A stretch of DNA of 64,000 nucleotides from an uncultured Pedosphaera sp. (GTDB taxonomy: Bacteria; Verrucomicrobiota; Verrucomicrobiia; Limisphaerales; Pedosphaeraceae), in contig CAIXFN010000013.1 of assembly GCA_903918755.1 (NCBI GenBank), positions 1-64,000 on the forward strand, in the 5' to 3' direction. Both the position numbers and the translations under genes were made by a program. The notes under the pieces were generated by a model that saw nothing but the letters and a program-made list of their open reading frames with translations, was not told the DNA's origin and ran no database searches. Below, one piece after another: positions 1-29,938 of this stretch; position 1 is the stretch's first letter, and every line of letters starts with the position of its first letter.

Positions 1-638
1 AGTCTATCGACAAGACCGGACACATTGCGTGAGAATTTATGGGTCCAGTTAGCACCAGCGGAGGATTCTGGGACAACGGCAGCTTTTTGGAATGAGGGGC
101 GCTTTTTTTTCAAAACTTTATTAATTCAACAGGCTGTTAGCCCAGCCTAACCAGGCTGGGTCTTCCGGCCATTCCTTCCAGCGCCCTGAAAGCGGCGCGA
201 CACCGGGGACCACAATTACAACGGAAGTCCAGGCTCCGGACACTTAATCCAGTTTCCTTTTCGCGGTTCCGAGTCTTCGTGTGAAATGCCTTCCCGCCTG
301 CGTTCTGCGGATTCAGCGATTTCTGCGGCCAAAATTCTGGGGCTTTCCCTGGCTGGTTTTGGCGGCCGAAAAGTTAAGAAAGTCGCAATGTCAGAGCCCC
401 CCGTGCTTCGCTGGCAGCAGGCAGGCCGTCTCCTCGGCACCTAGAAGTGTGAGTTTACGTGGCCTTCAGGTTCCTTTTTTGCGGTTTTGCGCATTTTGGC
501 GGCTAAAATTCCGGTTCTGTCCCCGCCTCGTTGCGGCGGCCCGCTCCGCGGTTGGCCCCCTGCCCCCCGCCCGCAAATTCTCTTTCAGCCCCCGGCCAAT
601 TTGTTAACCTGCCTGCGTATTTAAGCGAATCAAGCAAC
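1..638. other. Region without a confident gene, left edge
   Basis: No confident gene is seen before the glutaminyl-tRNA synthetase start. An open frame runs from base 1 to a TAA at 151-153 on the plus strand (about 50 codons) and could be the tail of a gene beginning outside the window, but I recognise no family. A hairpin lies at 141-160. A single copy of a 20-bp motif that recurs near the actin-like gene lies at about 235-252 on the minus strand. Bases 280-520 hold imperfect, degenerate short repeats rich in GCGG and AAAA/TTTT, which look like decayed dispersed repeats. The promoter of the next gene must lie near the right end, but no convincing -35/-10 pair stands out. Confidence 0.5.
141..160. 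terminator. Hairpin, possible terminator
   Basis: A perfect 8-bp stem CCCAGCCT / AGGCTGGG is separated by AACC. It falls on the C residues just before the TAA that closes the open frame at the left edge. No clear T-run follows, so termination is only a possibility. Confidence 0.35.
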
Positions 639-2387
639 ATGACAACGACCTCGACCACGACCTCGACCACGACCTCGACCAGCGATACCCCCGCCGCCGC
701 GGCACCCGGCGCGGCCGCCGCCAGTGATTTCATCCGCGACATCGTCGCCGCGGACAACCAGTCCGGCAAACATGGCGGCAAGGTGGTGACCCGCTTCCCC
801 CCCGAACCCAATGGCTACCTGCACATCGGCCATGCGAAGTCCATCTGCCTGAATTTCGGCATCGCCGGGGAGAATCCCGGCGGCGTCTGCCACCTGCGGT
901 TCGACGACACCAACCCCGCCCGGGAGGATGTGGAATACGTGGACTCCATCCAGGAAGACGTGCGATGGCTGGGATTCGACTGGGGCGCCAATAAATTTTA
1001 CGCCTCCGATTATTTTGAGCGCCTGTATCAATACGCGGAGGAACTGATCAAACTGGGCAAGGCGTTTGTTTGCGACCTGACCGCCGAGGAAATGATCAGC
1101 TTCCGCGGCTCCCCCACCGTGCCGGGCCGCGAAAGCCCCTACCGCGAGCGCACCGTGGAGGAAAACCTGAATTTGTTCGCCGCGATGCGCGCGGGCGACT
1201 TTGCCGATGGGGCCAAAACCCTGCGGGCGAAAATCGATATGGCTTCGCCCAACATCCATATGCGCGATCCGGCCATCTACCGCATCCGCAAGGTGGATCA
1301 TCACCGGACCGGCGACGCCTGGGGCATTTATCCGATGTACGATTACGCCCACTGCCTGTCCGACTCCATCGAAGGCATCACGCACTCCATCTGCACCCTG
1401 GAATTTGAGGTGCACCGGCCGCTCTACGACTGGATTCTTGACGCGCTCAAAACGCCCTGCCACCCGCAGCAGATCGAGTTCGCCCGGCTGAACCTCAGCT
1501 ACACCGTGATGAGCAAGCGCAAGCTGCTCCAACTCGTGCAGGAGGAGTTGGTCGAAGATTGGGACGATCCGCGCATGCCGACCATCGCCGGCCTGCGCCG
1601 TCGCGGGGTCACCCCGGAGGCCATCCGCCATTTCTGCGCCCGCATCGGCGTGACCAAATACAACGGGCTCACGGACATCGCCCTGCTGGAATTCAGCATC
1701 CGCGAGGATCTGAACCGCCGCGCCCTGCGCGTCATGGCCGTGCTCCGCCCGATCAAGGTGGTGCTGACGAATTATCCCGAAGGTCAGACCGAGGAAATGC
1801 CCGCGGTAAACAACCCCGAGGATCCCGCGGCCGGTTCCCGGACGGTGCCGTTCTCCCGGGTGTTGTACATTGAGCGGGACGATTTCATGGAAGTGCCGGC
1901 GAAGAAGTTCTTCCGCCTTTTCCCTGGCAACGAGGTGCGGCTGCGCTACGCCTACATCATCAAGTGCAACACCGTGATCAAGGACGACGCGGGCAACATC
2001 ACCGAATTGCAGTGCACCGTGGATCCCGACTCCAAGAGCGGCGGCGCCACTGCCGGACGCAAGATCAAGGGCACGATCCACTGGGTCTCCGCCGCGCATG
2101 CCCTCACCGCCGAAGTGCGGCTGTATGACCGCCTGTTCACGGTGCCCGAACCGGACAACGCCGGGGAAGGTCGCGACTTCAAGGAATTCCTGAATCCGCA
2201 TTCCCTCGAAACGCTGACCGATTGCAAACTCGAACCCAGCCTGGCCACCGCGGTGCCGGAAACCCGTTACCAATTCGAGCGGCTCGGCTATTTCCGGGCG
2301 GATCCCAAGGATTCGGCCGCCGGCAAACCGGTCTTTAACCGGACCATCGGGCTGCGCGATTCCTGGGCCAAGGAACAGGCCGGCTGA
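639..2387 (+). CDS. glnS: Glutamine--tRNA ligase
   Basis: This is a 582-aa class I aminoacyl-tRNA synthetase that charges tRNA-Gln with glutamine in the cytoplasm. The class I signatures are visible: [14 protein letters not shown] near residue 53 (HIGH) and VMSKRKL in the middle (KMSKS-type). The FDDTNP motif of the GlnRS/GluRS catalytic core follows the HIGH box, and the C-terminal half matches the anticodon-binding beta-barrels. I chose the ATG at 639 because homology begins about 30 residues later and upstream in-frame sequence is unlike any synthetase. The first ~30 residues are a low-complexity Thr/Ser/Ala extension encoded partly by three perfect 12-bp repeats at 645-680. A hairpin follows the stop. 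Identification is firm; the exact start is less so. Confidence 0.96.
645..680 (+). repeat. Three perfect 12-bp tandem repeats in glnS
   Basis: The unit ACGACCTCGACC occurs three times in succession and encodes a Thr/Ser-rich N-terminal tail outside the conserved synthetase core. Being a multiple of three, changes in copy number would keep the frame. Confidence 0.85.
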
Positions 2388-2419
2388 TCCTGGGGCATTT
2401 GCTAATTAGTAACATTGAT

Positions 2420-2450
2420 GCTATAATGCTGGGAGCCCAAGCGGGCTCCC
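2420..2450 (+). terminator. Hairpin after glnS
   Basis: GGGAGCCC / GGGCTCCC forms a perfect 8-bp stem with loop AAGC at 2431-2450, about 45 bp after the glnS stop. It is preceded by GCTATAAT (2420-2427), an octamer that also precedes a GGAGC hairpin at 29805. There is no T-tract, so it may be a dispersed repeat element that also works as a transcription stop. Confidence 0.45.
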
Positions 2451-2499
2451 ACGGTCCGCCCAGCGGGGTGGGGAAATCTGCCTCCGGGACCGCAGTTGA

Positions 2500-2588
2500 G
2501 TCTCTTACTCTCTGCACCGCTTGATGTTACGAGCACGGATGATAGCCCGGATGGGGTGGAATTCCCCATGGTGCAGAGAGTAGGAGAC
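2500..2588. repeat. 19-bp inverted repeat with nested hairpin
   Basis: The arms at 2500-2518 and 2570-2588 are 19 bp long with one mismatch (GTCTCTTACTCTCTGCACC against the complement of GGTGCAGAGAGTAGGAGAC). Inside the right half, ATGGGG and CCCCAT (2551-2569) form a second stem. The element sits between the convergent glnS and antiporter genes. It is sized like a small non-autonomous repeat, or could fold as a structured RNA or bidirectional terminator. No coding frame is evident. Confidence 0.7.
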
Positions 2589-2593
2589 GCGGC

Positions 2594-4060
2594 TTAGACG
2601 GCCGAAATCTTGGCGGGTGCAACTGCCGAGCGTCGTCTCATGGCATTGCCCACGCCCAACAAAGGCCCCGTCATGAAGGTCGTTACCAAGGCCATGATGA
2701 CCATCATCGCGAACACTTGCGCGGACAGGATCCCCAGTTCGTAACCAATATTCAGCACGATCAGTTCCACCAATCCCCGGGTGTTCATCAACGCCCCCAG
2801 GCTGAAGGCGTCTGGCCAGTTCATTCCCGTCCAGCGGGCCGCCATCATGCTCCCCCCCAGCTTGCCCGTGGTGGCCACCAGAATGATGAACCCGCAGACC
2901 GACCAGCCATGCCAGTCGTTCAACAGCCCGATCTGGGTCCGCAGACCGATGAAGGCGAAAAACAGGGGTAACAGGAAGGAGGTGCTGAAATTCTCCAACC
3001 GGTCGCGCAGTTGGGTCCGGAATTGCGGGTCCAGCGGCATGATGATGCCGACCAGGAAAGCCCCGAACAAGGCGTGGAGTCCGATGACCTCGGTGAACAG
3101 GGCCGCCGCGAAAACCAGCACCAGTACCGTCACCACTATGCCCGGGCCGGGGGTCCGCGGCGTGGCGGTAGGTGGGGTGAACCACCGGTGCAGCAGCGGC
3201 TTTACCAACCCGACGAGAACCAGGCAGAACGCCAACGCCAGCCCAAGGTTCACCAGGAACGCGGCGGGGCTTCCGGCCTTGGCAATCGCCACGACCACCG
3301 CCAGAATGCTCCAGGCGCTGACGTCAGACATGGCCGCGCAGGTGATGGCGGTGACCCCCAGATACGACTTGGCCATGCCGCATTCGGCAATGATGCGGGC
3401 GAGCACCGGAAAGGCCGTCATGCTCATCGCGGTGCCCATGAACAGCGCAAAGGCCAGGAAATCAATCTTCGCCGGGGCGTATTCCCCGTAGAGATAAAGC
3501 GAGAGCAGCACGCCCAGGAAGAAGGGAAAGACGATGCCCGCCTGACTCACCACGATGGCGGTATGGGCTTTTTTGCGCAAATGCTCCAGCTCCACCTCCA
3601 TGCCGACGACAAACATGAACAGGATCACCCCCACCTGGCTCAACATGCGCAGGGCGCCCAGGGATTCCGTGGGGAAAATGAACGCAAAGGCCCCCGGAGC
3701 AAACGTGCCCACCACCGACGGACCCAGCACGATCCCGGCCACCATCTCCCCGATTACCGACGGCTGGCCGAGCCGCACAAAGAGGGAACCGAACAGCCGC
3801 GCCAGGATGACAATGAGCAACAATTGCACCAGCAGGAGGCAGAGCGGTTCCCGCAGGTGGTCGCGGATGCCCTGCCAGGTGGAACCGAGCAAATCCCCGG
3901 TCGGCGCGGCCGTCGCGGTCGGGGCGAGGGCGTGGCCGCCCAGGGCCGCAGGCAGGCTTTGCCGGACCAATTCCAGGCGCTTGCCCGCGTGCAGGGCAAA
4001 ATAAATGCCCAGCCCGAAGCCCGCGATCAGCAATAAATAAACCGCCAGATTCCGTTTCAT
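2594..4060 (-). CDS. CPA2-type cation:proton antiporter
   Basis: A 488-aa polytopic inner-membrane protein of the Kef/CHX-like monovalent cation:proton antiporter family (Na+/H+ exchanger domain). It has about a dozen hydrophobic segments and family motifs: LGQPSVIGEMVAGIVLGPS near residue 95, MGTAMSMTAFPVLARI near 205, and CAAMSDVSAWSILA near 240, where the acidic site reads Ser-Asp in place of the Asp-Asp or Asn-Asp common in the family. An extra N-terminal transmembrane segment and a Pro/Ala/Thr linker precede the conserved core. No TrkA/RCK regulatory domain is present. Substrate cation cannot be told from sequence. It converges on glnS. Confidence 0.9.
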   Translation of the reverse strand: MKRNLAVYLLLIAGFGLGIYFALHAGKRLELVRQSLPAALGGHALAPTATAAPTGDLLGSTWQGIRDHLREPLCLLLVQLLLIVILARLFGSLFVRLGQPSVIGEMVAGIVLGPSVVGTFAPGAFAFIFPTESLGALRMLSQVGVILFMFVVGMEVELEHLRKKAHTAIVVSQAGIVFPFFLGVLLSLYLYGEYAPAKIDFLAFALFMGTAMSMTAFPVLARIIAECGMAKSYLGVTAITCAAMSDVSAWSILAVVVAIAKAGSPAAFLVNLGLALAFCLVLVGLVKPLLHRWFTPPTATPRTPGPGIVVTVLVLVFAAALFTEVIGLHALFGAFLVGIIMPLDPQFRTQLRDRLENFSTSFLLPLFFAFIGLRTQIGLLNDWHGWSVCGFIILVATTGKLGGSMMAARWTGMNWPDAFSLGALMNTRGLVELIVLNIGYELGILSAQVFAMMVIMALVTTFMTGPLLGVGNAMRRRSAVAPAKISAV

Positions 4061-23866: not shown

Positions 23867-26089
23867 TCAGCGTGGGAGGGCGAAGGCCACGTAGGCATCC
23901 CCGCTCTTGGTGCCCATCTTGCCACCACCACAGGCTATGACCACGTACTGGCGCCCGTTCACCTGGTAGGTGGACGGGGTGGCGTAACCGCCCGCGGGGA
24001 GTTTGGTCTGCCAGAGCAGGCGGCCGGTCTTTTGGTCAAAGGCATGGAGCATCTCGTCCTTGGATGCGGCAATGAACACCAGTCCGCCGGCGGTCACCAC
24101 CGGACCACCGTAATTCTCCGTGCCGGTCGGGGGAATGCCCTGGGCTTTCAGCTCGGGGTATTCGCCCAGCGGCGTCTTCCAGACGTATTCGCCGGTGTTG
24201 AGGTCGATCGCATTCAGGGTGCCCCACGGCGGCTTGACCGCCGGATAACCCTTCGGATCCAGCCACCGATTGTAACCGGTGTGGGTATAGGGTTCACCGA
24301 GCGGTTGGGTGTCGGATGCGGCGGCGGAAGCATGGGGATCAACGTTGACCGGGGTCTCACCGAGGATGAATCCGGCGACTGCCTCAATCTGCGCGGGGGA
24401 GAGAAAGGCGAACGCCGGCATCACTCCTTTGCCGTGCCCCAACAGTTGGATGATGTCCGGCTTCTTGAGTTTGGCCCCGATGTTTAAAAGCGAAGGGAAA
24501 GCCCGCGCGGGGTCCCCTGACCGACTTAATCCGTGACAGGCGGCACAAATCTGTTGGTAGATCCCCTCCCCGCTCGAAAGCGCCGCGCCACCCGCCGGAT
24601 GGGCCTCGACCATGGTCAAAATCCAGGGCATTTCGTTGGCATTCACATAAAGAATTCCGTGCCGGGGATCCACCGCCGCGCCACCCCATTCGGCACCGCC
24701 GTCAAAACCGGGGAAAATGATGGTCCCTTCCCGGCTGGGGGGTTGGAAAGGAACGTGCGGGCGGATCTTCACAAAGCGATCCAAGACGGCCCGGTGGGAT
24801 TCGGCGGAAAGGTCGGTGATTTCGTTCGCGGTGAACAATTGGCGGGCGAATGGTGCCGGCCGGGTGGGCCAGGGTTGCGTGGGCCAGGCGGATTCACCCT
24901 GCAAATCCGAGGGGGCGGCGGGTCTCTCCTCGATCGGAAACAAGGGTTCCCCGGTTTCCCGGTTGAACACGAAAACCACCCCCGATTTCGTCACCTGAGC
25001 CACGGCGTCGATGGAGCGGCCGTCGCGCTTGACCGTGAGCAAGGTGGGCGGAGCCGGAGGATCGCGATCGGCCAGATCATGGTGCACCAATTGGTAGTGC
25101 CATCTGCGCGTGCCGGTTGCGGCGTCCACCGCCAGCAGGCAGTTCGCAAACAAGTTTTGACCGATCCGGTTGCCGCCCCAGAAATCAAAGGTAGCCGAGC
25201 CCAGCGGCACAAACAAAAGTCCGCGCTTTTCATCGAGCGTCATGCCCGGCCAGCAGTTCACCCCGCCGATGAATTTCCAAGCTTCCGGCGGCCAGGTTTC
25301 ATAGCCCAACTCCCCGGGATGCGGAATGGTATGGAACGTCCAAACGATTTCCCCGGTGCGGATGTTGTAAGCCCGCAGGTGCCCGGGCGCCGCCGGTCCC
25401 GGACCTTCCGCGACCCGGGTGCCAAGAATGAACAAATCCCGGAACACGATGCCCGGCGAACTCGCACTCACCAGCAATCGACTGGCGTCACGCCCGAGGC
25501 CATCCTTGATATCCACCCGCCCCTGTTTGCCAAAGGTGGGAATGGGTTTTCCGGTCCGGGCGTCCAGGGCGTAGAGGAAGTGATCCGCCACGTACAAAAT
25601 GCGTTCGTCGTTCCCGCCGGACCAATAAACGACCCCGCGATTCACGCCGAAAGCTCCGGCATTCCCATCTCCTGCCGGATCAAACCGCCAGAGTTCGCGA
25701 CCCGTCGCCGCCTCGAGGGCCACGGCCTTCAAGCCGGGCGAAGTGGCGTAGAGAACCCCTTTGATAATCAACGGGTTGCATTGGATTTGGGAGCGATTCT
25801 CCCGCGCATCCCCGGCATGGTAGGTCCACGCCACTTCCAGGCGATTCACATTGCCCCGGTGGATTTGCTTGAGCGGGGAGAAATGGGAGCGCCCCGAGTC
25901 GCCCAAATACGAAGGCCAATCCTGGTCGGCGCCGCGGGTGGTGGCGGGCAGGAGAAGAAATAGCCACAGGCAGAGGGCAGGTCCGGTGGGGAATGGTGGA
26001 CGACCCGGCGCATTGCGGTTGGGAAAGGCATGGCATGGCATGGCGGGGAATCTAACGATTCCCGGGGGGATGGGGTCAATGAGTTTCAC
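23867..26089 (-). CDS. PQQ-dependent dehydrogenase with cytochrome c domain
   Basis: A 740-aa quinoprotein resembling membrane or periplasmic glucose/alcohol dehydrogenases: an eight-bladed PQQ propeller in which a heme c domain (CAACH, about residue 530) is inserted before the last blades. Blade signatures such as TGRELWRFD, TGTRRWHYQ, TGEYVWKTP and TGRLLWQTK are spread along the chain. A hydrophobic stretch (ALCLWLFLLLPA) gives an export signal. The ATG at 26089 or the one at 26041 could be used; the latter sits on three TGGCA direct repeats. No PQQ biosynthesis gene is in the window. Confidence 0.9.
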   Translation of the reverse strand: MKLIDPIPPGIVRFPAMPCHAFPNRNAPGRPPFPTGPALCLWLFLLLPATTRGADQDWPSYLGDSGRSHFSPLKQIHRGNVNRLEVAWTYHAGDARENRSQIQCNPLIIKGVLYATSPGLKAVALEAATGRELWRFDPAGDGNAGAFGVNRGVVYWSGGNDERILYVADHFLYALDARTGKPIPTFGKQGRVDIKDGLGRDASRLLVSASSPGIVFRDLFILGTRVAEGPGPAAPGHLRAYNIRTGEIVWTFHTIPHPGELGYETWPPEAWKFIGGVNCWPGMTLDEKRGLLFVPLGSATFDFWGGNRIGQNLFANCLLAVDAATGTRRWHYQLVHHDLADRDPPAPPTLLTVKRDGRSIDAVAQVTKSGVVFVFNRETGEPLFPIEERPAAPSDLQGESAWPTQPWPTRPAPFARQLFTANEITDLSAESHRAVLDRFVKIRPHVPFQPPSREGTIIFPGFDGGAEWGGAAVDPRHGILYVNANEMPWILTMVEAHPAGGAALSSGEGIYQQICAACHGLSRSGDPARAFPSLLNIGAKLKKPDIIQLLGHGKGVMPAFAFLSPAQIEAVAGFILGETPVNVDPHASAAASDTQPLGEPYTHTGYNRWLDPKGYPAVKPPWGTLNAIDLNTGEYVWKTPLGEYPELKAQGIPPTGTENYGGPVVTAGGLVFIAASKDEMLHAFDQKTGRLLWQTKLPAGGYATPSTYQVNGRQYVVIACGGGKMGTKSGDAYVAFALPR

Positions 26090-26102
26090 GCCGGGGGCGA
26101 AC

Positions 26103-26142
26103 CTGGATTAACTGCCCGGAAACTGGATTAAGTGTGTGGAAG
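26103..26142 (+). repeat. 20-bp tandem repeats, first pair
   Basis: Two adjacent copies of the unit CTGGATTAANTGNNNGGAAR. The same unit recurs at 26264-26303 and once, on the minus strand, near 235-252 at the left edge of the window, so it is a dispersed element. Confidence 0.75.
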
Positions 26143-26263
26143 GGCGACGACTGGGGAAAAAGTCAGAGCCTCGTCACCTTCTAAGGCACTTACAAATTAG
26201 GAGCGGTTCACGCCGCAAAAGGACTGGAACTCGCGGGCAGTTTCGCTGGCAATTCTTCGCGAC

Positions 26264-26303
26264 CTGGATTAAACGTCCGGAAGTTGGATTAAGTGTCTGG
26301 AAA
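26264..26303 (+). repeat. 20-bp tandem repeats, second pair
   Basis: Two further copies of the CTGGATTAA-type unit, followed by a partial third (CTGGACT). The second copy is almost identical to the copy near 235-252. Confidence 0.75.
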
Positions 26304-26720
26304 CTGGACTCGGCTTCGGTGGATGGACGGAATCCGGGAATGAAGCCATGATGTGCGGTGGTGAAACTTGACCATTTTGATCGGGATTGAATGCATTTCG
26401 GTTGCCGGAATTTGGTTCAGGTTTGGATCAAATGCGGGCGGATGGCGGGGTGCCGCGTGCGCCACTGGCTGGGGTAGCGGGCACGCGGCAGGGCCGCGAT
26501 TCGCTTTCGCTTTCGCGGGTGGTGGCCAAGTGAATGGCAAAATCAATATGTCAAAGAGCGAATCCACCCAGGGCCAGGAAAAGGCTATCGGGCGGACAAA
26601 ACCCGCCTTGGTTGTAGCATGGGATTCGGAGATTCGTATTGCTATGGGAGGAATTTAGCAGTGGATTTGGCTACCCCTACTAAGGGAGGATCGAGCTCCC
26701 TCTCCCGTCCTCCCTGCCGG

Positions 26721-27851
26721 CTAAAAGCACTTGCGGTGAACAATGGCAGGGCCGGCCTCTTGATATTCCTCCTTCGTGATCCACATGCACGAAAAGGTGC
26801 TGATGCTGGAAAGAATCGAACCACCGATCCAAACGCAGTCTTTTCGCTCGGGGATGGCGATGACTTTTACCTTCGAGGAAATGTTCCGGGGCGCCAGCTT
26901 TTGGACCTCTTTGGTGAGCCGCTCGGGTAACCCCGGGAAGAGCGTCGAGCCGCCGGCGAGGACAATGTTCTGATACAGATCCTTACGGACGTCCACCTCG
27001 GATTTTTGAATGGACTGAAAGACCTGATCATGAATGCCACTGAACCCCCGGCCCACTAATGAAGGTCGGAAGAGGGCCTCAGGGCAACTAAAGCGTTCGT
27101 CGCCGAGGGTGATTACTCGGCCGTCGGGCATTTCATAAGGGACCCCACCCCTTTTCGCGCACGCCAATTCATCCTCAAAGTCAAGGGCCACAAAACAGGA
27201 CTTTTCCTTCACATCGCGGAGGATCTCGAGCCCGTCGCCGGCAGTCAGGTTAATCCCCTTTGAGGACAAAAGTTTCGCCAGGTAATCGTCGAGGTCTCGG
27301 CCGGCCAGATTGGTGCGTAATATGGAGTGCGGCAACGCATAGCCATCCCATATCGGCACCACGCTGGTGCTCCCACCGCCAATTTCAAGGACCAGACCCG
27401 TGAACTTGCCGGCGGAGTACAAAGCGAGCACGGCGGAAATGGCGATATAAAGGCCCGACACATTAAAAGTGTCGAACATGATTTGGGTCATCTTCTCGCG
27501 GTTCGCCTTGGGGTTCAAAGGAGGTTCGGTGAGCATGATATTGTGCTCCTCAGGAACGACTCGCAACTCATCGGTAAAGATGTGAGCCATCACCTTTTCC
27601 CAGTCGTCCCAATCCGCGACGATGCCGCATTCGACGGGAGATTTGAGGATCAGCTGCGACCGCATTTCCTGAGCTTCGGTCCCGATGTAATAGTCCTTCG
27701 CTCCGCTGCCACCCATGTTTTGTGGAACCTTGGGCCGGCCAACGAGGTTGGGGACGACGCACCGGGGATTCTCCTCGCCGGAGAAGCCAGCTTTGATGTA
27801 GCTGGAACCGTTTTCAATGATTATGGGTGGTTTGTCGATGCCATTTTCCAT
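26721..27851 (-). CDS. Actin (conventional eukaryotic-type) homolog
   Basis: A 376-aa protein colinear with eukaryotic actin over its whole length. Shared stretches include PLNPKANREKMTQIMF (112-127), DGYALPH, LAGRDL, VALDFE, CPEALF, the adenosine-loop GGSTLFPG, VWIGGSIL and the exact C-terminus IVHRKCF. A loop of the same length as the DNase-I-binding loop is kept (about 40-55). Compared with actin there is a 3-residue deletion near 235 and a 2-residue insertion near 324. Changes at key sites are D11 to E13, H73 to C75, Q137 to S139, D154 to E156 and H161 to S163. It is not MreB, ParM, MamK or FtsA. It has no intron or frameshift, lies 37 bp after the hydrolase gene, and is visibly lower in GC than its neighbours. 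Known bacterial actin is rare; polymerisation here is inferred. Confidence 0.97.
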   Translation of the reverse strand: MENGIDKPPIIIENGSSYIKAGFSGEENPRCVVPNLVGRPKVPQNMGGSGAKDYYIGTEAQEMRSQLILKSPVECGIVADWDDWEKVMAHIFTDELRVVPEEHNIMLTEPPLNPKANREKMTQIMFDTFNVSGLYIAISAVLALYSAGKFTGLVLEIGGGSTSVVPIWDGYALPHSILRTNLAGRDLDDYLAKLLSSKGINLTAGDGLEILRDVKEKSCFVALDFEDELACAKRGGVPYEMPDGRVITLGDERFSCPEALFRPSLVGRGFSGIHDQVFQSIQKSEVDVRKDLYQNIVLAGGSTLFPGLPERLTKEVQKLAPRNISSKVKVIAIPERKDCVWIGGSILSSISTFSCMWITKEEYQEAGPAIVHRKCF

Positions 27852-27888: not shown

Positions 27889-29145
27889 TCAAAATACGGG
27901 ATTTTTTTCGACTGTCAAGAGTGGGTGATCGGCGGACCCTTTCACGAGCAATTCCGAAGGCTTTCCCATCAAGTATTGGCCGAAAAATTCTCGCAGGACG
28001 GCACGAGTCGCCGCGATGAACGCCTGGCCGTCGACGGGGTGGGAAAATATGGGTTTACCGCTGGGATACGAGCTGGTGGCGATACCTGGGATCACCCCCA
28101 AATCCGTGAAGTTGGCGTGTTCGGCGCCGGTCAACTTCAGCTGGATGCCGGGCGTGGCTTTTTGTGCATATTCCGTTTCCGAGCGCGCTTTTTCCCGGGT
28201 ATTCGGTGAATCCTGGTGGTCCGACTTCAGGATGAGCACGGGAAGCGCCTGGGCGTCCTCGGGGTCCACGTATCCGGGGTCGAGGAGCGCAATGGCCTTC
28301 AGTCGTTTATCGAGGCGAGGCATTCTGGCCACGATCAACCCGCCGGCGGAATGGCCAAAGGCGCCGATCCGACTGAGGTCCACGCGACCAAAGAACCGGT
28401 GGCCTTTAGTCTCATTCCAAACCTGCAACTGATCGAGCTCATAGCTCAAATCACCGGCCCACAGCGAGAACATCTCCCCCCGGTAGCCGGGGGTGATGTT
28501 CCCGGCGGGAAAGGGAACCGTGATACCGCTTCCAACCGGGACGTCGCCAACCACCACGAAGCCATGGCTCGCCAGGTCCTCGGCCAGCGAGGTGTACTTC
28601 GAGGGAAACGAGATGCTGCCCGGCGCCAGCAGGATCACGGGAAAGCGCTCGGGGGATGACGCCAGGGAAACGTCCTCCCGGGAATGAACGACGATGGAAG
28701 CCAGGTATTTCTGGGCATCCCGCGCCAACGGGTCGGGAGATTTCGCCAAGAACTCGTGGTAATCGGCCCCCAAGCGGACCCACTCGGGGAACATCCAAGC
28801 GGAATGGTCGCCCTTGGGTCCGGACTGCGCGGGATACCAAATCTGGGACCAGAATTCGCGCTTGTGGTCTTTCTGGGTGCCCCGAAGGTCCTCCCGTGAC
28901 ACGTCGACCATATAAACGGTGGTGCGGCCCACGGCATACTTTCCGGTTGGTGCCGGCAATACTGGCGGTTCGGCGGCGGCGGCGGCGAGCGGCGGCACGA
29001 AGGCCACGCCCATGGCCAGGATCACGAATGCCTTGAGCACTTGATAAAACAGGTGATCGCGCCGCTTTGGATGACATGAGCCATTAGGAAATTGGAGTTC
29101 CGGGCTACGAGGATACCGCAGTATTTCTTTTCTGATCGCGTTCAT
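27889..29145 (-). CDS. Exported PAF-acetylhydrolase-like alpha/beta hydrolase
   Basis: A 418-aa serine esterase related to plasma-type platelet-activating-factor acetylhydrolase (isoform II fold). The nucleophile elbow GHSAGG is at 264-269 (Ser266), the acid is probably in the LLDPGYVD segment near 289-294, and the His is in AEHANFTD (343). A hydrophobic export signal (about 33-57) ends in an Ala run, after a polar N-terminal stretch, so the true start may lie downstream of 29145. It is upstream of, and probably co-transcribed with, the actin-like gene. Relatives hydrolyse short acyl chains from phospholipids or act on polyesters; substrate here is unknown. Confidence 0.85.
   Translation of the reverse strand: MNAIRKEILRYPRSPELQFPNGSCHPKRRDHLFYQVLKAFVILAMGVAFVPPLAAAAAEPPVLPAPTGKYAVGRTTVYMVDVSREDLRGTQKDHKREFWSQIWYPAQSGPKGDHSAWMFPEWVRLGADYHEFLAKSPDPLARDAQKYLASIVVHSREDVSLASSPERFPVILLAPGSISFPSKYTSLAEDLASHGFVVVGDVPVGSGITVPFPAGNITPGYRGEMFSLWAGDLSYELDQLQVWNETKGHRFFGRVDLSRIGAFGHSAGGLIVARMPRLDKRLKAIALLDPGYVDPEDAQALPVLILKSDHQDSPNTREKARSETEYAQKATPGIQLKLTGAEHANFTDLGVIPGIATSSYPSGKPIFSHPVDGQAFIAATRAVLREFFGQYLMGKPSELLVKGSADHPLLTVEKNPVF
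27891..27918 (-). promoter_or_regulatory. Candidate sigma-70 promoter for the actin-like gene
   Basis: On the minus strand a perfect -35 hexamer TTGACA (27913-27918) is followed after 16 bp by TATTTT (27891-27896) as -10. This places a start about 33 bp upstream of the actin ATG and overlaps the last codons of the hydrolase gene. It would allow actin expression independent of the upstream gene. Confidence 0.5.
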
Positions 29146-29607: not shown

Positions 29608-29938
29608 AAGCTCTGGAAAAAAATCTGCCGCACGAGTGGGGGATTCGCAAGGAAGGAATATTTTTGAACAGAAGGGCGCGAAGGACGCGAAAACACGAAG
29701 GAAGACAGGTGAAGGAGGGGAAGTTGAGGGTGACGGTGGGGAGCGGGCAAATGATGGGTTCTATGCCGCTCCTATGGAGCTTGGGGTTTTTGGGTTTGGT
29801 GAGTGCTATAATCATGGCGCTCCGCTGGAGCTTGGGGGCTTCGACAATGCCGCGTGATGCGGCGGGCACGGTGCTGAGGCACCGGCGACGTGCAAGGTGA
29901 TCGGCTGTTGAAGACGACAGAGGCGGGACAGTTCCGCC
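29608..29938. other. Region without a gene, with hairpin repeats
   Basis: 331 bp with no convincing gene. The left part contains an Arg/Lys-like purine-rich stretch (GCGCGAAGGACGCGAAAACACGAAG region), which looks like a degenerate dispersed repeat. Two near-copies of a 19-bp hairpin follow at 29768-29786 and 29819-29837. Confidence 0.5.
29768..29837. repeat. Duplicated GCTCCnnnGGAGC hairpin
   Basis: GCTCCTATGGAGCTTGGGG (29768-29786) and GCTCCGCTGGAGCTTGGGG (29819-29837) differ at three bases in the loop; each is a 5-bp stem. The second is preceded by GCTATAAT (29805-29812), also found before the hairpin at 2431. This suggests a dispersed palindromic repeat family. Confidence 0.65.

Follow-up and report, generated by a model that had tools for sequence, protein, structure and literature searches.

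The uncultured Pedosphaera sp. contig carries a full-length gene for a eukaryotic-type actin, which is almost certainly a real chromosomal gene of this bacterium and in whose product the residues that serve ATP hydrolysis in conventional actin are replaced. The preliminary description had proposed a eukaryotic-type actin of full length, and the open reading frame was recovered with exactly the coordinates proposed in the window (the whole stretch of 64,000 nucleotides that was analysed), its 376-aa translation containing every sequence block that had been quoted (Table 1). The Pfam profile PF00022 (Actin; cut-off 27 bits) matched residues 8-376 over model positions 5-410 with 408.8 bits and an E value of 2.5e-122, and conventional actins led the PDB matches with up to 488.6 bits over residues 9-376 among the best 60 of 171 matches, in agreement with the family assignment made earlier. 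Chance is excluded as the source of the match. In a joint alignment the product was identical end to end at 58% of positions to a rabbit-type alpha-skeletal actin chain and at 59% to a Chlamydomonas actin chain. The identity to Acanthamoeba actin was 58.6% versus 44.8, 39.0 and 36.4% to Arp1, Arp2 and Arp3, respectively, and the protein is thus not closer to Arp1 (centractin) than to actin. No actin in the small set of compared rows exceeded 59% identity. The only other PF00022 match in the genome (7.19 Mb in 118 contigs) was MreB, and Rfam gave no match in the window. An AlphaFold model built from 11 rows was too poor to read a fold from (pLDDT 50.5, pTM 0.34), and it is the 58% identity to solved actins that points to an actin fold.

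Table 1. Coordinates of the actin gene, its sequence elements and its neighbourhood in the window.
Feature	Position	Strand	Remarks
PQQ dehydrogenase with cytochrome c domain, downstream neighbour	23867..26089	-	Pfam
Dispersed intergenic repeats	26093..26674		end 46 nt past the actin stop codon
Eukaryotic-type actin gene	26721..27851	-	376 codons, without intron, without internal stop
Conserved C-terminus IVHRKCF	26724..26744	-	translation and alignment
Second phosphate loop, residues 156-163 EIGGGSTS	27363..27386	-	actin 154-161 DSGDGVTH; MreB DIGGGTTE
Ser139 codon, in place of catalytic Gln137 of actin	27435..27437	-	alignment; role of Gln137 from PMC10062479
D-loop region, residues 41-52	27696..27731	-	of actin length; 36% identical to Acanthamoeba actin, actin positions 40-50
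First phosphate loop, residues 13-20 ENGSSYIK	27792..27815	-	actin 11-18, D11E and G15S
Alpha/beta hydrolase (PF03403), upstream neighbour	27889..29145	-	37 nt before the actin start
Promoter-like site TTGACA-16-TATTTT	27891..27918	-	39 nt before the start codon

The chains of conventional actin used for comparison (PDB 5kg8, 7ju4 and 4efh) have in common with the product their length, the full-length alignment, the C-terminus and most nucleotide-holding residues, but D11, Q137, D154, D157 and H161 are replaced in the product and its D-loop is rewritten. The preliminary description had missed the replacement of the catalytic centre (D11E, Q137S, D154E, D157G and H161S). In actin numbering, E11, S15, S137, E154, I155, G157, S159 and S161 stand for D, G, Q, D, S, D, V and H, respectively, so that D11, Q137, D154 and H161, which were kept in 10 out of 10 eukaryotic rows, are absent and have become E, S, E and S. 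Compared with actin, the product also has a two-residue insertion after LAPRNI and three residues fewer before the PYEMPDG stretch. Among 78 positions invariant in seven eukaryotic actins and Arp1-3, 14 were changed in the protein, comprising 5 of 9 positions at the phosphate site versus 9 of 69 elsewhere (Fisher p 0.008, for a phosphate-site list that was chosen after looking). On the adenine and ribose side, 9 of 10 positions (90%) were kept. In cardiac actin, as described in PMC10062479, Gln137 bonds the attacking water and assembly is accompanied by a flip of His161 toward ATP; the Q137A mutant still forms filaments with low ATPase activity.

The second phosphate loop of the product (LEIGGGSTSVV) resembles by eye that of MreB (VDIGGGTTEVA). 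The MreB_Mbl profile scored 22.7 bits over residues 270-317, its best stretch lying away from the loop, and among nine actins scanned this protein alone had a notable score, the next being 11.4. As the score was below the cut-off of 27 bits, membership of the MreB family was rejected. We read the MreB-like loop as probable convergence because its flanks remain actin-like, and recombination with MreB may be considered as another source. Such a glycine-rich loop could support a different hydrolysis chemistry.

We evaluated whether the gene is native to the genome from its immediate surroundings. The intergenic repeats next to the stop codon matched 24 other contigs of the same genome (a hand count among the matches listed, in a search that initially scored 37 candidates per genome), none being listed in seven genomes of the family, and two copies aligned base by base were ~71% identical over ~230 window positions. 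A second short repeat, at window positions 29747-29837, matched several other family genomes as well. On the other side of the gene, the hydrolase had an 80% orthologue in G001, the sole other genome of the genus examined, where a different gene adjoins it. The PQQ dehydrogenase had orthologues in G001 and in a further genome, G002. No actin was present on the fetched stretches around these orthologues, and a search of the G001 genome for actin gave no match. G001 does not offer a clean empty site, as its genes are ordered differently round the hydrolase and its PQQ dehydrogenase lies on a separate contig. The promoter-like site upstream of the start codon is within chance, one being found versus 1.2 expected in the 3 kb scanned.

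It is very improbable that a protist actin was brought in here by contamination or by a chimeric assembly, even though the genome assembly is fragmented with an estimated contamination of 2.55%. A repeat of the host on one side and a host gene on the other each lie within 50 nt of the actin gene, and the contig extends over 65,760 bases on which the Pfam-matched genes are of bacterial kinds (a tricorn-like protease, glycosyltransferases, a flippase, TonB receptors, histidine kinases, an exosortase and the PQQ dehydrogenase). The gene is free of introns, none of the compared actins exceeds 59% identity, and codon use leans to the host, with a score of 0.142, the fourth lowest of 40 genes, and a host-like GC3 of 0.69. 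Eukaryotic actin may enter such assemblies: two contigs (L018 and L019) of H1_MAG_00039, labelled Verrucomicrobiaceae, look like eukaryotic contamination and have interrupted actin frames, which indicates that contamination is recognisable when present. Contamination and chimerism, including the chimeric join at a gene border that the preliminary description had named as a refuting result, were accordingly rejected on indirect evidence, namely the repeats, the host gene within 50 nt and the codon use.

We then searched for the distribution of related genes. A profile search of the 320 genomes of the order detected actin in this genome only. It gave one genome among 384 sampled from the class, besides seven weak matches not above 22 bits (five with the MreB loop DIGGGTTE), and one among 387 sampled from the phylum. 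A scan of an 84,980-species collection with the protein alone gave no relative. When the same collection was scanned with a three-row alignment, an approach that relies on two short peptide patterns and does not cover the collection fully, 11 loci emerged: one each from Myxococcales, Thiosymbion, Alteromonadaceae, Microcoleus, a cyanobacterium, Finniella and an alphaproteobacterium, and four that were eukaryotic-looking or partial. With the genome of the respective query included, actin was present in 3 of 388 genomes of a cyanobacterial sample, in 4 of 240 of a myxobacterial-class sample and in 2 of 42 of Finniella's order, one of the latter being an internally deleted copy (L041). The actins of L011-L017 were 42-57% identical to the Pedosphaera protein. 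In these searches, actins of eukaryotic type turned up rarely in bacteria and in scattered groups. A plasmid or phage origin was rejected: at E 1e-5, tblastn matched none of 72,556 plasmid records and none of 50,697 phage records, and three scans of viral contigs gave a single actin contig (L022), with 48% identity. In the literature covered by our search, from which most subscription journals and all preprints were absent, we saw no Verrucomicrobiota reported to have an actin of eukaryotic type.

Several of the loci had features of their own. In Finniella inopinata (L016:4664-8415, forward strand), three actin genes stand in tandem with N-termini that by eye are signal-peptide-like, so that these actins may be exported. 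The viral-collection contig L022 (3.2 kb; positions 9-3074, forward strand) has genes for an ERF-family protein and a YqaJ-type recombinase as well as for a full-length actin in which all catalytic residues are kept, and is either an actin-bearing phage or a chimera. At ~650 nt from the actin of Myxococcales (L011), a 234-aa open reading frame (L023:1465-2169, reverse strand) scored 23.4 bits for Profilin (cut-off 25) and weakly matched a TAT signal, an arrangement that by analogy recalls the actin/profilin pair of Microcystis. The actins from Thiosymbion (L012), Alteromonadaceae (L013), a cyanobacterium (L015) and the myxobacterial class (L051) formed one starred group (97/94), which suggests that a captured actin may have been passed between bacteria. 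Two divergent actins of one myxobacterial-class genome (L050 and L053 of G1251) are without most of the D-loop and much of both phosphate loops.

Phylogenetic trees of 21 and 25 rows, from which Asgard, Uab, BARP, ActM and giant-virus actins were left out, grouped the protein with the conventional actins to the exclusion of the Arps (94/93 and 89/90, not starred). Its branch was ~0.7 changes per site long and had no fixed position within the conventional group. A reduced tree of 11 rows had no supported branch. The tests did not reject a clade that joins the protein to Arp1 (p 0.27), to the myxobacterial set (p 0.26), to the cyanobacterial and gammaproteobacterial set (p 0.39) or to the Finniella actins (p 0.35; p 0.21 when L017 was included), kinship with the latter being suggested by a common STSxVPI loop. 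A single clade of the 14 bacterial rows was likewise not rejected (p 0.15), and no supported grouping of the protein with L011-L017, L046, L050, L051 or L053 was obtained. The preliminary description had named nesting within one eukaryotic species as the mark of contamination, and in this small set of rows the protein instead sits on its long branch with at most 59% identity to any row.

The lateral transfer that was also proposed there fits the presence of the gene in a single genome of the order, its absence from G001 and its position between host repeats and a host gene. That the actin was gained by lateral transfer within the bacterium's own lineage is well supported, and the ultimate source was presumably a eukaryotic actin. 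A direct eukaryotic donor would be the simplest reading of the identity values, and an Asgard or bacterial intermediate may be considered as an alternative route; no Asgard actin was named among the best 60 of the 171 PDB matches.

The gene appears to have been kept by selection because its frame is intact despite changes at ~40% of residues. Relative to Acanthamoeba actin, some 150 replacements separate the two proteins, for which a rough count assuming no constraint would give ~8 stop codons, and none was seen. The constraint to which the stop count points could have acted in this host or in an earlier one. It is improbable that the gene is a recent passenger without function that is now decaying, as its occurrence in one genome only and without partner genes would allow; the extent of replacement, the many conserved blocks retained with no stop codon and the partly host-like codon use all speak against this.

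We next compared the surfaces of the protein with those of Acanthamoeba actin, using position lists for the contacts, the D-loop and the groove that we take to be correct. Against 58% for the whole protein, identity was 54% at longitudinal and 47% at lateral contact positions and 71% in the barbed-end groove, which presumably binds profilin, cofilin and WH2 domains. The groove of Arp1 is also above the average of that protein (63 versus 54%). The hydrophobic plug, the C-terminus and the subdomain layout are retained in outline. In the genome, profilin gave zero matches and gelsolin and cofilin none; control genomes gave none either, apart from a weak profilin match in G414. As the searches rang in no control genome, the absence of the three partners is likely, but not proven. 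By eye, the product has no export signal. The protein may form filaments of some kind, as the preliminary description suggested; eukaryote-style dynamic filaments look unlikely because its contact positions are slightly below the protein average and the residues for ATP hydrolysis are replaced.

Taking these observations together, we tentatively propose, at somewhat less than an even chance, that the protein is a cytoplasmic ATP-binding actin with crippled hydrolysis that acts as a static scaffold. A gene laterally acquired from a eukaryotic actin and kept under selection would encode a product that holds the actin fold and probably binds ATP, since most positions that hold the nucleotide outside the gamma-phosphate region are retained. 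Judging from the sequence and published mutant data, hydrolysis of ATP would be slow or absent, as serine takes the places of both Gln137 and His161 and D11, D154 and D157 are altered as well. The protein may then form nucleotide-loaded filaments or sheets in the cytoplasm, without turnover driven by hydrolysis, as a counterpart of the structures of cyanobacterial ActM. The static cytoplasmic scaffold itself is a guess that we base on the lack of matches to profilin, gelsolin and cofilin and of an export signal by eye. By analogy, the ActM ribbons and sheets formed in a bacterium and the Q137A filaments with low ATPase activity would support it.

The main rival, which we consider rather unlikely but serious, is a non-polymerising actin, an ATP-binding monomer that serves as a nucleotide-gated regulator or binding partner. 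Several nuclear actin-related proteins are ATP-binding monomers that act as regulators or partners. The contact positions of the Pedosphaera protein are no better kept than the rest and its D-loop is rewritten, so that polymerisation may be lost, and the groove and the adenine and ribose side are both conserved above the protein average. On the other hand, the plug, the C-terminus and the arrangement of subdomains persist in outline, contacts within a homopolymer can change in concert, and the raised conservation of the groove in Arp1 suggests a partly general feature. The conserved groove would also suit an actin mimic that acts on eukaryotic partners, in which case the bacterium would live with or inside protists and the protein would bind host actin or actin-binding proteins. 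The three tandem Finniella actins with their signal-peptide-like N-termini are in line with such a role, Finniella being an alphaproteobacterium of a group that PMC11909080 describes as tied to eukaryotic hosts. For the Pedosphaera protein we judge mimicry to be quite unlikely, as no export signal is visible and no link of this bacterium to a eukaryotic host was seen.

We also compared the catalytic residues across the actins from bacterial assemblies. Gln137 was replaced in 11 of 14 rows by eight different residues, in at least five steps on the tree, while Asp154 was replaced in 6 and His161 in 7; all ten eukaryotic rows and the viral contig L022 keep all three residues. The 14 rows were this protein and 13 rows from 10 other bacterial assemblies, 10 of these 13 having lost Gln137, and their bacterial context was taken from neighbouring genes for L016 and L011 and from the assembly record or position for the others. 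Kept outside the 14 were L041 (without the Gln137 stretch), the fragments L047/L048 and L052, the partial and probably eukaryotic L020 and L021, and viral L022; L018 and L019 were counted as eukaryotic. The set is small and the tree weak, two of the eukaryotic rows were entered by hand, and most eukaryotic rows are conventional, slowly evolving actins, which favours the contrast with the bacterial rows; a fair comparison thus needs divergent eukaryotic actins. The actins L011-L017, L046, L050, L051 and L053 are, like the protein described here, of eukaryotic type in bacterial records with Gln137 often replaced. It is possible, though we regard it as doubtful, that bacteria capturing a eukaryotic actin repeatedly disarm its ATPase, with several losses of one catalytic glutamine in unrelated groups and in the present case with a phosphate loop remade in MreB style, and that such actins change from dynamic polymers driven by ATP into nucleotide-locked structural proteins. 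We found no report of recurrent Gln137 loss in the literature searched, which excluded most subscription journals and all preprints. If true, this would be a natural repeated experiment on what actin needs without its usual partners.

Eukaryotic-type actins are known in bacteria from ActM, BARP and the Uab actin, and BeeR is a separate, MamK-like family. ActM of Microcystis aeruginosa PCC 7806, the actin of its ActM/PfnM pair, is likewise a eukaryote-type actin in a bacterium and is thought to be of lateral origin in the account of PMC3254629. The same account describes it as located on an island with a profilin gene and as polymerising, assembling in the bacterium into ribbons and sheets with profilin as a bundler; by this description it is set apart from the present protein, for which no profilin match was obtained. 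Also compared by description, BARP of Haliangium ochraceum (PMC3035250) is an actin-family protein (COG5277) in a bacterial genome of another phylum, and the actin of 'Candidatus Uab amorphum' (PMC6906331), for which its authors suggest an Asgard-like source, is near the eukaryotic actins and belongs to a bacterium that, like the present host, is of the PVC group. BeeR of Verrucomicrobiota (PMC11929497) has an actin fold and occurs in the same phylum as the present host, but it is MamK-like (25-30% identical to MamK), phylum-wide and has an N-terminal extension of 30-50 aa, whereas our product is 58% identical to actin, without the extension and confined to one of the 320 genomes of the order. 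Membership of BeeR, compared by description with its definition in PMC11929497, was rejected on this distribution and on an actin alignment that starts at residue 9. New here are the host group, the replaced ATPase centre and the hint of recurrent loss.

Actin is among the most conserved proteins of eukaryotes. In one account, put forward in PMC3254629, it is its many partners that hold actin still. An actin with no partner detected and a replaced catalytic centre, taken with the loss of Gln137 in 10 of the 13 rows from other bacterial assemblies, makes this partner-constraint account testable. The replaced ATP-splitting part suggests that a borrowed cytoskeleton protein was turned into something different, and raises the question of whether hydrolysis, and not polymerisation, is what a bacterium is unable to exploit in actin.
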